The notes under the pieces are model-generated. The model did not search any database. It saw only the letters and a program-made list of their open reading frames with translations, and was not told where the DNA came from. Positions 60,228 to 62,955 of a DNA stretch of 64,000 bases are shown piece after piece. The position numbers and the translations under genes are program-made. Every line of letters starts with the position of its first letter. The stretch's first letter is position 1. The stretch lies in NCBI GenBank assembly GCA_026390595.1, contig JAPLFQ010000020.1, positions 375,763 through 439,762 on the forward strand. Reading direction: 5' to 3'. The stretch comes from Ignavibacteriales bacterium (lineage in GTDB: Bacteria; Bacteroidota; Ignavibacteria; UBA10030).

Positions 60228-61613
60228 TCAACTCTCTGTGGAGCCGGAGTTCTTAATCCCGTATTTCTTGATCTTGAGATAGAGTGTTTTTGCGGTGATG
60301 CCGAGGACCTGTGCCGTCCTGAGCCTGTTCCACTGGTTGGCTCGCAGCACTTTCTCGACGTGGATTCTTTCGATCTCTTCAAGGGAGGGAAGAACTCCTT
60401 GATCCTCTTGACGCTCGATCCGTGGAACGTCCGAACTTCCAGAAAGAGACGGATTGATCCATAGATCCCTGGCCTCGATGGTGCCTCCCTGGCTCAGGAC
60501 AGTTGCTCCTTCGATTACGTGTTCCAGTTCACGCACATTTCCCGGCCAATCGTAGCGCATCAAGATCGACATCGCTTCGGGGCTTACTTTCTTGGGACCA
60601 GCCTTGGTCTTTCGCTTCAGGAAGTAATCAACGAGCAGGGGGATGTCCTCTTTTCGTTCCAAGAGAGAAGGAAGCTTGATGCTTACAACATTGAGACGAT
60701 ACAGCAGATCCTCTCGGAAACGTCCGGCCTGTACCTCCTGGGGAAGGAGCTTATTGGTGGCGGACACGACTCTCACATCGACCTTCATGGAATTCGTCCC
60801 GCCGACTCTCCGAAATTCGCCCGTCTCCAGAAATCTGAGCAGCTTGGCCTGAGTTGGCTGGCTGATGTCCCCAACTTCATCAAGAAACAGCGTCCCTCCA
60901 TTTGCGACTTCGACAAGTCCTTGCTTGGCAGCGTAGGCGTTTGTAAACGCCCCTTTTTCATGTCCGAACAGTTCACTCTCGAGGAGTTGATCCGGAATGG
61001 AGGCACAGTTGACAGCGACGAAAGGCTGGTCTTTCCGAGGACTCTCATTATGGAGAAGATGTGCAATAAGCTCTTTGCCCGTCCCGCTCGCACCCTGGAT
61101 CAGAACAAACGCCTCGCTATCCGCGACCTTTCGGGCATTGTCGACAGCCTGACGGAACACGGCACATTCGCCGACCAACCCACTCGGGCCGCTGATGCGA
61201 TTCAGCTCACGTTTCATCACCTCTTTGTCGATGACGAGCTGGCGGCGTTCGGCGGCGCGCCGGACCGTCGCGAGCAGTTGCGGCGTATCGTACGGCTTGC
61301 TGACGAAGTCGTACGCTCCGAGCTTGATCGTTTCGATAGCCGTCTTGTAGTCGCTGACATTTGTTAACATGATGACCTGCGTCGCAGGTGAGTGCTCGTT
61401 GATGAACCTGAGCACATCGATGCCGCTGACGCGGGGCATTTTGATGTCGAGGAGGATAATGTCGTAAATGGTGGACTGAATGAGGTTGATCGCTTCGGTG
61501 CCGTTGAGTGCGACATCGACGTCAAAATCGGAGAGTTCTTCGAGCTCTGTCTTGAGAAGGAAGGTTATTGATTCTTCGTCGTCGACAACCAGGATCCGGT
61601 ACTTCTTCGCCAT
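60228..61613 (-). CDS. Sigma-54-type response regulator with GAFTNA loop
   Basis: A protein of 461 residues: receiver (1-122, Asp 56), AAA+ domain (145-375; Walker A GASGTGKE at 174-181, Walker B GGTLFLDE near 239), and a Fis-type HTH at the end (NRLRTAQVLGITAKTLYLKI). The sigma-54-contact loop reads GAFTNA at 221-226, with Asn in place of the second Gly. This is a known kind of natural variant, and a similar change in NorR is reported to alter control of the AAA+ domain (from memory). A single receiver gene lies 24 bases upstream. Confidence 0.92.
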   Translation of the reverse strand: MAKKYRILVVDDEESITFLLKTELEELSDFDVDVALNGTEAINLIQSTIYDIILLDIKMPRVSGIDVLRFINEHSPATQVIMLTNVSDYKTAIETIKLGAYDFVSKPYDTPQLLATVRRAAERRQLVIDKEVMKRELNRISGPSGLVGECAVFRQAVDNARKVADSEAFVLIQGASGTGKELIAHLLHNESPRKDQPFVAVNCASIPDQLLESELFGHEKGAFTNAYAAKQGLVEVANGGTLFLDEVGDISQPTQAKLLRFLETGEFRRVGGTNSMKVDVRVVSATNKLLPQEVQAGRFREDLLYRLNVVSIKLPSLLERKEDIPLLVDYFLKRKTKAGPKKVSPEAMSILMRYDWPGNVRELEHVIEGATVLSQGGTIEARDLWINPSLSGSSDVPRIERQEDQGVLPSLEEIERIHVEKVLRANQWNRLRTAQVLGITAKTLYLKIKKYGIKNSGSTES

Positions 61614-61637: not shown

Positions 61638-62009
61638 CTAGAGACCACTCAGGACGCGTTCGACCGTCGTAAGCAGATCGACAAGATCGTACGGTTTGCT
61701 GACGAAATCCTCAGCGCCGAGTTTTTTTGATTCAATTGCGTTTTTCAGGTCGGCAAAACCGGTCAGCATGATGACTTTCGTGGCCGGCTGGGTCTCCTTC
61801 ACGAATTTCAGCACTTCGAATCCATCGACGTTCGGCATCTTGATGTCGAGAAGGATCAAATCGAAGATTTGCCCACGGAGGATATTGATCGCTTCGGCTC
61901 CATCTCCCGCTGACGAGACTCTGTATCCCTCCCCCTCCAGTTCAGCGCTCAAGACCGTCCGGAGAGCGTCTTCGTCATCGACAACCAGAATTCTATTCTT
62001 TTCTGCCAT
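61638..62009 (-). CDS. Stand-alone receiver (CheY-like) protein
   Basis: A protein of 123 residues, only a receiver domain: acidic pair DD at 11-12, phospho-acceptor Asp 55 (LLDIKMP), Thr in MLTGF and Lys in SKPYD. From ATG 62009 with AAGGAG seven bases before it. Co-transcribed with the sigma-54 regulator at 60228, which it resembles in its receiver, so it may compete for or relay phosphate. The longer frame to 62300 runs into the divergent gene's promoter and is rejected. Confidence 0.93.
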   Translation of the reverse strand: MAEKNRILVVDDEDALRTVLSAELEGEGYRVSSAGDGAEAINILRGQIFDLILLDIKMPNVDGFEVLKFVKETQPATKVIMLTGFADLKNAIESKKLGAEDFVSKPYDLVDLLTTVERVLSGL

Positions 62010-62076
62010 AAGAATTCTCCTTGGGAGATCCGCGATCAAGCTGCCAGAGAGCGTTATTGTTGCTCTGAGACAAAAT

Positions 62077-62105
62077 AACATAGAGAAAATCCCACAGAAA
62101 AGCAA
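62077..62105 (-). promoter_or_regulatory. Candidate promoter of the receiver/sigma-54 regulator pair
   Basis: Minus strand TTTG, then 20 bases after TTG, then TATGTT. It lies 68 bp before the receiver start. Confidence 0.45.
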
Positions 62106-62183
62106 ACGAGCAACTTCTGGGCAAACGAATCGCACAACCTTCTTCTGAGATATCGTTTTGGTCTGTGCTCGTCCCCCAACTCG

Positions 62184-62213
62184 TTGCAAATCACACAAAG
62201 AATTTTTACCTTT
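62184..62213 (+). promoter_or_regulatory. Candidate promoter of the receiver-DHp gene
   Basis: TTG (62184-62186), 20 bases, TACCTTT (62207-62213), which would start transcription within a few bases of ATG 62224, so the mRNA may be nearly leaderless. Confidence 0.45.
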
Positions 62214-62223
62214 ATCCCTCACA

Positions 62224-62955
62224 ATGAGCACACCCACACCACAGAAACCCCTGAAAGCAATTAATGTTCTCCTGGCCGATGATGACATCGGCTTTGCCAA
62301 AATCGTCCAACGACAACTCCAACTCTTCCAGAATCGGGAGTTTAATCTGGTTTGGAAAGAGAGTGTGGAAGAGGCGCTTCAGGAGATTCAGTCAAACAAT
62401 GCTATTGACCTGATCCTCACAGACTACGTGTTTCCCGGCTCGAACGGGCTGGAGTTCTGCCTCCAGCTGAATCAGTTGAATTCCGAGATTCCGATCGTCT
62501 TCGTGACAGCGACCCGTGATTTCAAGCTGGCCATCGAAGCAATGAAGCTCGGTGTCGAGGACTTCCTCATCAAGGAAGATTTGGCTGAATCTGTCCTCCC
62601 TCGCACCATCCTGAACGTCCTTGATCGCGTTCGTATGTACAAACAGATCACAGCCGTTGAGAAACGGATGCTCATCGCCGAAAAACGGGCGGAGGCAATC
62701 CGAGAACTCGTCGTCACGGTCTGTCATGAATTCAACAATCCCCTCGCAGCCATCAAAATCAGCGCCGATCTGATCCGCCGCCAGTCCCCGACCGAGGAAG
62801 ACAAGAGCATACTGAAGGAATTCGAAGAGAATTTTCAGAAGATCGAGTCGGAAGTGAAGCGGCTCCGTGACATCAGCTTCGAGCGGATTGACTTCCACGG
62901 CACCACCGTTACGGCCGCCGCTCAGAGTTCTCCAACGCCGTCAAACCGCCAATAG
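62224..62955 (+). CDS. Receiver plus DHp (H-box) protein without an ATPase domain
   Basis: A protein of 243 residues. Residues 10-135 are a receiver (DDD at 19-21, Asp 67 in LTDYVFPG, Thr 95, Lys in FLIKED). Residues 140-165 form a coiled linker, and 157-222 form a histidine kinase dimerisation hairpin with H-box CHEFNNPLAAI (His 168) and a second helix. The protein stops after the hairpin, so the HATPase_c domain is missing. It could be a phosphotransfer protein or a phosphatase for the divergent receiver genes. Start ATG 62224 lies 10 bases after the candidate promoter. Confidence 0.9.
   Translation: MSTPTPQKPLKAINVLLADDDIGFAKIVQRQLQLFQNREFNLVWKESVEEALQEIQSNNAIDLILTDYVFPGSNGLEFCLQLNQLNSEIPIVFVTATRDFKLAIEAMKLGVEDFLIKEDLAESVLPRTILNVLDRVRMYKQITAVEKRMLIAEKRAEAIRELVVTVCHEFNNPLAAIKISADLIRRQSPTEEDKSILKEFEENFQKIESEVKRLRDISFERIDFHGTTVTAAAQSSPTPSNRQ

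Follow-up and report, generated by a model that had tools for sequence, protein, structure and literature searches.

A conserved receiver-hairpin protein lacking an ATPase domain accompanies a sigma-54 regulator in Ignavibacteria and relatives

The window, which is the whole 64,000-nucleotide stretch of DNA analyzed here from an Ignavibacteriales bacterium, encodes a protein, called REC-DHp in this report, whose parts follow one another in the order receiver (REC), long helix, HisKA dimerization hairpin (DHp) bearing CHEFNNPLAAIKIS, and short tail (Table 1). Across a gap of exactly 214 bp (62010-62223), its gene faces those for a stand-alone receiver and a sigma-54 response regulator, and we refer to the three genes as a triad. 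A sequence-only reading of this DNA had already given the shared gap this length and assigned the regulator a GAFTNA loop; both statements hold, the loop being found at residue 221 of the sigma-54 protein.

Table 1. Features of the triad locus, in window coordinates
Feature	Position	Strand	Remarks
Receiver-AAA+-Fis sigma-54 response regulator	60228..61613	-	461 aa; loop GAFTNA; phospho-Asp D56
Stand-alone receiver (REC)	61638..62009	-	123 aa; phospho-Asp D55
Promoter-like element TTG-N20-TATGTTA, 5' of stand-alone receiver	62076..62105	-	conserved, 8-sequence alignment
Promoter-like element TTG-N20-TACCTTT, 5' of REC-DHp	62184..62213	+	conserved, 8-sequence alignment
REC-DHp protein gene, without CA domain	62224..62955	+	243 aa, from the most likely start
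Fused receiver domain	62266..62577	+	residues 15-118; D19, D20, D67, T95, K117 all kept in window copy
DHp hairpin	62698..62871	+	residues 159-216; H-box C-HEFNNPLAAIKIS; H168 codon 62725-62727

Pfam analysis of REC-DHp yields a Response_reg match at residues 15-118 (E 4e-19) and a HisKA match (PF00512) at residues 160-217 (E 2.5e-8, above the cut-off). There is no Pfam match to HATPase and no domain after residue 216, which agrees with the previous description of a receiver and a complete hairpin without an ATPase domain. Likewise, the Hpt fold (PF01627) is not matched by Pfam up to E 1, HisKA being matched instead. A CA domain would not fit downstream, since the frame closes at 62955 and the + strand continues with DUF34/NIF3 from about 63212. 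The gene most likely starts at ATG 62224, judging from the limit of the open reading frame, whose earliest possible start is TTG 62158, and from the conserved promoter-like element that lies between the two. The start proposed previously, 62077, is about 147 bases too early; the remainder of that description of the locus holds.

An AlphaFold model built from a 28-sequence alignment (mean pLDDT 87.7) predicts the receiver, a helix at residues 124-185 that carries H168, a turn, and a second helix at residues 191-215, with a disordered tail of low confidence. Structure searches with this model appear to add little to the Pfam assignment of the hairpin. Matches to the whole model are filled by receivers, and the hairpin alone gives no Foldseek match at E <= 0.001, its top rows including, at weak scores, the DHp domains of CpxA, ERS1, EnvZ, GacS, and ZraS. 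The VIA-align rows for the hairpin at Z 8-9 are mixed with unrelated helical bundles, and neither Spo0B nor ChpT is among the rows listed in the hairpin structure searches.

The two conserved elements in the gap share the form TTG-N20-TAnnTT, which we take to be the ordinary Bacteroidota housekeeping promoter type. Autoregulation by sigma-54 through the shared gap was considered and set aside because both elements presumably represent such ordinary promoters.

Pfam divides the sigma-54 regulator into a receiver (PF00072), a Sigma54_activat domain (PF00158), and a Fis helix-turn-helix (PF02954). Its Walker A and B motifs are kept and RpoN (PF04552) was found in all eight genomes searched, so the regulator probably works with sigma-54. 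At the position of the second glycine of the GAFTGA loop, glycine occurs in none of 56 triad rows and in none of eight type B proteins. The triad rows instead carry GAFTNA (29), GSFTSA (11), GAFTSA (7), GSFTNA (6), or GAFTDA (3), and all eight type B proteins carry GAFTDA. The 15 distinct loop motifs of the glycine type in the fetched DNA all lie at loci of other activators, and one open reading frame outside the regulator family also carries GAFTNA. GAFTDA appears among the loop variants listed as keeping activity (PMC4641369), and the G266D and G266N forms of NorR are described as activating, bypassing repression by the regulatory GAF domain (PMC2941729). By analogy with NorR, the triad regulator is perhaps biased toward the ON state.

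Comparison with relatives indicates that REC-DHp is a conserved companion of a gene switch and not a broken gene. When 128 matches were reduced to 95 distinct sequences (the window and some contig-cut fragments included), the tail after the hairpin was found to be at most 37 residues long, and none of the 95 carries a HATPase_c domain after residue 225, the finding that the sequence-only reading had named as the sign of a local deletion. A local deletion or assembly error is ruled out by these relatives with the same short form. More generally, it is scarcely credible that the gene is a local truncation of a normal Rec-controlled histidine kinase, whether by decay or by faulty assembly. Its architecture does resemble that of LvrB (REC-DHp-CA) as far as the hairpin, but the short form with its brief tail is common to all 95 sequences, is drawn from many separate assemblies, and shows low dN.

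The relatives come from several searches. Matches at E 0.001 were obtained in 61 of 61 genomes, some of these being paralogues or receivers only. A scan of named genomes, from which the best 80 of 208 confirmed relatives were taken and which used HEFNNPLA as one of its two patterns, drew on source taxa that include Ignavibacteria/Ignavibacteriae/Ignavibacteriales, Bacteroidetes/Bacteroidota, Chlorobi, and Kryptoniota. Within the class of the window, 78 of 294 genomes match REC-DHp at E <= 1e-20 with paralogues counted, and a phylum-wide draw gave matches in 18 of 395 genomes, all from that class. Within the genus, both domains show few protein changes versus many silent ones. For the closest pair (L132/L133), dN and dS are 0.0035 and 0.305 for the receiver and 0.0062 and 0.392 for the DHp, silent sites being saturated in most other within-genus pairs. 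Low dN in both domains, together with conservation of the triad across an order, argues that REC-DHp is more than a product of chance.

On a quick tree of 104 of 107 distinct sequences (those under 190 residues were left out), the window falls in a clade of 74 rows with an SH-aLRT value of 100. The divergent triad, in which the REC and sigma-54 genes face REC-DHp, is present in 59 of these rows, window included, and homologues with both the same truncation and the same neighbors, for which a search had been suggested, thus exist. Of the 15 remaining rows, L158 and L179 run out of contig after a correctly placed REC start, 11 are members of family f3 or group with it on the tree, genome G006 accounts for one, and L154 has 1.4 kb of upstream DNA without a REC. 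Eight genomes with an unlinked REC-DHp (seven of f3 plus G006) were tested, and each has an intact REC-sigma-54 pair elsewhere (73-83% and 57-61% identity, respectively).

A different arrangement is found in families f12 (Kryptoniota) and f20, where REC-DHp lies directly upstream of the sigma-54 gene in the same direction, with anything from a slight overlap to a gap of about 63 bp. Because REC-DHp and the regulator adjoin both in divergent triads and in these same-direction pairs, their link has outlived rearrangement. There is no free REC in the operon of f12 and f20. That these families have no free REC at all is ruled out by a 64-68% identical REC elsewhere near secretin genes, which branches outside the triad RECs on a weakly resolved tree. 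At L288-L292 this receiver lies near a secretin gene, identified by Pfam in L288 and L290, and L290 also has a type II/IV secretion ATPase gene nearby. Among the Kryptoniota-like loci L196-L205, Pfam analysis of L203 places the REC-DHp and sigma-54 pair directly after ftsQ-ftsA-ftsZ in a division and cell-wall cluster, and genes of a size like ftsQ, ftsA, and ftsZ precede the pair in L198, L199, and L271. In part of f20, a 124-residue protein, possibly helix-turn-helix, is encoded directly upstream of REC-DHp (L267:5547-5921 and L270:6063-6437).

Some lineages do without REC-DHp. In seven genomes, from genera g21, g45, and g46, REC-DHp has no match at E 1e-20 and the REC is kept (about 79-80%), with the sigma-54 gene after it in six of the seven; in G282 this gene was not seen beside the REC. 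G031 and G054, whose contigs end at the REC, were left out of this count. In G035 the gene facing the REC is a GHMP kinase, ispE-like, and four others have a gene of similar size there. All three triad genes are missing at orthologue level from G034, G039, and G044 (family f4) and from G053. Because the REC, and in six of seven cases the sigma-54 gene, stay where REC-DHp is absent, REC-DHp is not the sole source of phosphate for these two proteins.

Conservation within REC-DHp is highest in the H-box, which scores 0.98 versus 0.61 for the whole protein among 55 triad loci plus the window. HEFNNP is found in all 74 clade rows, which comprise 41 from protein-similarity searches, the window itself, and 32 from the scan using HEFNNPLA. 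Because the scan rows were selected with that motif, only the 41 similarity-search rows are unbiased for it, and HEFNNP is present in each of them (41/41). Beyond the clade, the 16 rows that have the histidine likewise retain H, E, N, N, and P.

In contrast, the fused receiver is frequently altered. At least one of its five catalytic residues differs in 21 of 72 clade rows, requiring at the fewest 11 changes on the tree from which the clades were taken (L145 and L181 were left out because of gaps at the receiver site); 11 of the 21 come from similarity searches and the rest from the scan. Eight rows have a substituted or missing phospho-Asp (6 tree changes), and 15 have a change at the second acidic residue (10 tree changes). 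Some changes are mild, such as D20E in three rows; G056 has lost its receiver site entirely and still carries a perfect H-box. All 30 rows outside the clade (12 type B proteins, 14 of type C, and 4 belonging to a third paralogue) retain the five residues. Within the genus of the window, low dN in both domains shows the fused receiver to be under as much constraint as the DHp, so the decay of the receiver belongs to other branches.

Of the three triad proteins, the free receiver has the highest conservation (mean 0.84), and its alpha-4 to alpha-5 face reaches 0.94-1.0. With the window included, the phospho-Asp is kept in 56 of 56 free RECs and in all 55 readable sigma-54 regulators, one further row being cut. 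Helix alpha-1 of a receiver is the usual DHp contact. In the sigma-54 receiver this helix is not especially conserved (0.62 versus 0.74 for the whole protein).

The sequence-only reading had proposed a phosphorelay without a local kinase. The triad is indeed real and conserved, and a custom HATPase profile found no HATPase open reading frame within 6 kb of a triad in flanking DNA that is often shorter than this; the nearest is a kinase about 6.7 kb off in L063/L178. In G006, where REC-DHp is unlinked, such a frame lies about 3 kb away. The companion HisKA profile contains at least one wrong seed. However, the idea that the protein's own receiver always feeds its DHp does not survive as a general rule because the catalytic site of the fused receiver is changed in so many clade members.

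A census of the window's own genome gave 70 HATPase places and 56 HisKA places. At three of the HisKA places, the 900 bp downstream contain no HATPase on that strand; REC-DHp is one of them and a paralogue is another. No full kinase with a related DHp emerged from this genome as a candidate partner, the best match beyond REC-DHp itself and its two paralogues being 19% identical (E 6.5e-4). A CA-only HATPase_c protein (G000:C20:132875-133438; L229:373-939), encoded beside a DRTGG-domain gene, was also considered. It is not a conserved partner, since clear homologues occur in only 7 of 30 genomes, its own included (44-55% identity besides itself). Four of six further HATPase places that were examined look like HATPase_c_2, of the anti-sigma type.

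Paralogues of type C present the mirror image of the window's clade: their DHp-like hairpins are of similar length, the histidine is absent in 14 of 14, and the receiver is intact in 14 of 14. They form one clade on the tree, which implies one change. This set comprises L207-L210, L252-L257, L273, L280, L281, and a copy in the window's own genome (L032:7691-8368; G000:C26), which lies behind a PAS-GAF kinase plus a further REC. In 13 of the 14 rows the gene is directly behind a full kinase, and the proteins have a C-terminal motif like YIKDIKMIDLS.

Without a CA domain REC-DHp would have no autokinase activity, so that phosphate must come from a receiver or from the CA domain of another protein. 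A bare DHp can carry out two reactions with receivers, namely transfer and hydrolysis. On sequence grounds, we read REC-DHp as a DHp protein that works on neighboring receivers without ATP, either as a phosphotransferase or as a phosphatase, and that probably moves phosphate to or from the sigma-54 switch. Our main reading, a tentative one to which we assign a probability of about 0.38, is that it serves as a phosphotransferase in a relay running from REC through DHp to the sigma-54 regulator. We infer that a full histidine kinase encoded elsewhere would phosphorylate the stand-alone REC and perhaps, where it is intact, the fused receiver as well. The phosphoryl group might then pass to H168 of the DHp in what is presumably a REC-DHp dimer, and from there to D56 of the regulator. 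Dimer geometry may be governed by the fused receiver, through phosphorylation in copies with an intact site and through the fold alone in the others. The order for comparison is Spo0F, Spo0B, Spo0A, in which the Spo0B reaction is reversible; if the same were true here, REC-DHp could also drain phosphate. ChpT offers a precedent for phosphotransfer by a DHp (PMC3433190), and a relay from a single-domain receiver through a degenerate kinase to an output regulator is described for SdrG, PhyT, and PhyR (PMC5898713).

This relay is supported by the invariance of HEFNNP, by retention of the phospho-Asp in both REC and regulator, and by a partner linkage that survives rearrangement. It is favored as well by the apparent replaceability of the fused receiver, whose changes are expected if another receiver can substitute for it. 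Several observations weaken the relay. An obligatory step should not be lost alone, as seen in the seven genomes without REC-DHp. Constraint on the fused receiver equals that on the DHp in the window's genus, and transfer by PhyT is described as irreversible (PMC5898713). The HExxN motif fits a phosphatase equally well, alpha-1 of the sigma-54 receiver is not especially conserved, our searches identified no kinase donor, and some receiver changes are conservative. Furthermore, the argument that a missing free REC goes with an intact fused receiver is not clean because f12 and f20 have a REC elsewhere.

One alternative, possible though still doubtful, is that REC-DHp is a dedicated phosphatase, in which case a DHp dimer would hydrolyze the phosphorylated REC, the phosphorylated regulator, or both through H-E-x-x-N and so hold the regulator off, with the fused receiver as a tuner. 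H-E-x-x-N fits the phosphatase signature given for HK853, whose isolated DHp domain is reported to be active as a phosphatase (PMC5727384), and the E/DxxT/N motif is intact in all 74 clade rows (the 32 from the HEFNNPLA-using scan among them). The invariant histidine does not decide between transfer and hydrolysis because the H260A change lowers the phosphatase activity of HK853 (PMC5727384), and an invariant histidine is thus compatible with both. A phosphatase role has also been raised in print for archaeal HisKA proteins without HATPase (PMC5847659). Loss of REC-DHp while REC and mostly the sigma-54 gene are kept is easier to accept for a brake than for a relay step. Because Asp and Asn in the NorR loop bypass GAF repression (PMC2941729), a brake on the phosphate side would be sensible for a regulator whose loop lacks the glycine in all 56 triads. 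However, these points are all indirect, the NorR result concerns a GAF domain rather than a receiver, and sequence does not separate transfer from hydrolysis.

It is unlikely that REC-DHp is half of a split or heterodimeric kinase, receiving phosphate in trans from a full kinase's CA domain in a mixed dimer or from a CA-only protein before donating to REC and the regulator. The kinase-like features of the H-box (HE and Pro) are invariant and the own genome has its 70 HATPase places to draw on, but the flanking DNA of the triads, the distant full kinases, the sparsely distributed CA-only protein, and the anti-sigma type of four of the six other places all speak against it. Less probable still is a non-enzymatic dimeric adaptor in which receiver and hairpin are a docking module only and the histidine is never phosphorylated. 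The 14 type C hairpins demonstrate that a histidine-free role exists in the family, whereas the window's clade never varies in the histidine or its motif, although the rest of the protein changes often.

We speculate, with low confidence, that a duplicated receiver-DHp module has met opposite fates. Type A would keep the hairpin histidine and let its fused receiver decay in many branches, and type C would keep the receiver while its histidine is gone. Type A might then serve a sigma-54 activator with a bypass-like loop, either as a brake or as an exchanger of phosphate that needs no ATP, and type C, behind a full kinase, might be a receiver-driven hairpin output. If this scheme, improbable as it is at present, were true, the family would include a naturally evolved, kinase-free DHp enzyme.

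REC-DHp can be set beside several known systems. Its hairpin with a conserved, putative phosphoacceptor histidine, with no autokinase activity expected, and its location next to genes for a single-domain REC and an output regulator recall Spo0B, as well as ChpT (PMC3433190) and PhyT (PMC5898713). The latter two keep a degenerate CA-like domain, whereas REC-DHp has none and adds an N-terminal receiver. Rec-controlled kinases with a CA domain are well described, and LvrB has REC, long signaling helix, and DHp in the same order (PMC13269768). LvrB is also the best PDB sequence match of REC-DHp (8vc9). However, LvrB possesses a CA domain and autokinase activity (PMC13269768), and the chain of REC-DHp ends after the hairpin. 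The regulator resembles the NtrC family in having REC, an AAA+ domain with Walker A and B, and a Fis helix-turn-helix, in a genome with RpoN, but its loop is never GAFTGA in 56 of 56 triads and its linked partner is REC-DHp, not a kinase.

There is also a likeness to an archaeal class. REC-DHp agrees with the definition of a HisKA domain with conserved histidine and no HATPase, by Pfam and in 74 of 74 clade rows. Archaeal proteins of this kind are presented as nonenzymatic histidine kinase-like proteins for which a phosphotransfer or phosphatase role is raised (PMC5847659). Those of the AF_1472 class ("possible incomplete histidine kinase" in P2CS) share the HisKA-type domain without HATPase, and AF_1472-type proteins also carry REC (PMC5847659). 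They differ in having PAS/GAF sensors and are described there as unstudied, with partners unknown; this 2018 archaeal census likewise states that experiments had yet to address any REC-HisKA response regulator without HATPase (PMC5847659). In contrast, REC-DHp consists only of REC and DHp, is bacterial, and has conserved partners in a sigma-54 regulator and a free REC. Our searches of open-licence papers gave no description of this bacterial lineage or of the triad. A bacterial variant with conserved partners makes this class, in print for archaea, testable. It is easy to dismiss histidine kinase-like proteins without an ATPase domain as fragments, or to annotate them wrongly as kinases. This lineage offers fixed partners, a conserved active-site motif, and natural variants in which the receiver site is changed, the histidine is lost, or the gene is lost, and these variants are ready controls for asking whether a bare DHp is a phosphotransferase or a phosphatase in nature.

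Two further types of protein were observed in the window's own genome. A third REC-DHp paralogue (L033:2963-3706), with counterparts in L278 and L279, has the motif HHELNNPM or similar; L279 carries a tandem pair, and no kinase was found in the DNA covered at the L033 and L279 loci. Another gene (L236:1235-1867; G000:C25:203351-203512) encodes a 210-residue HisKA protein without HATPase, with the H-box HQINNPL and an N-terminus that looks membrane-spanning by eye.
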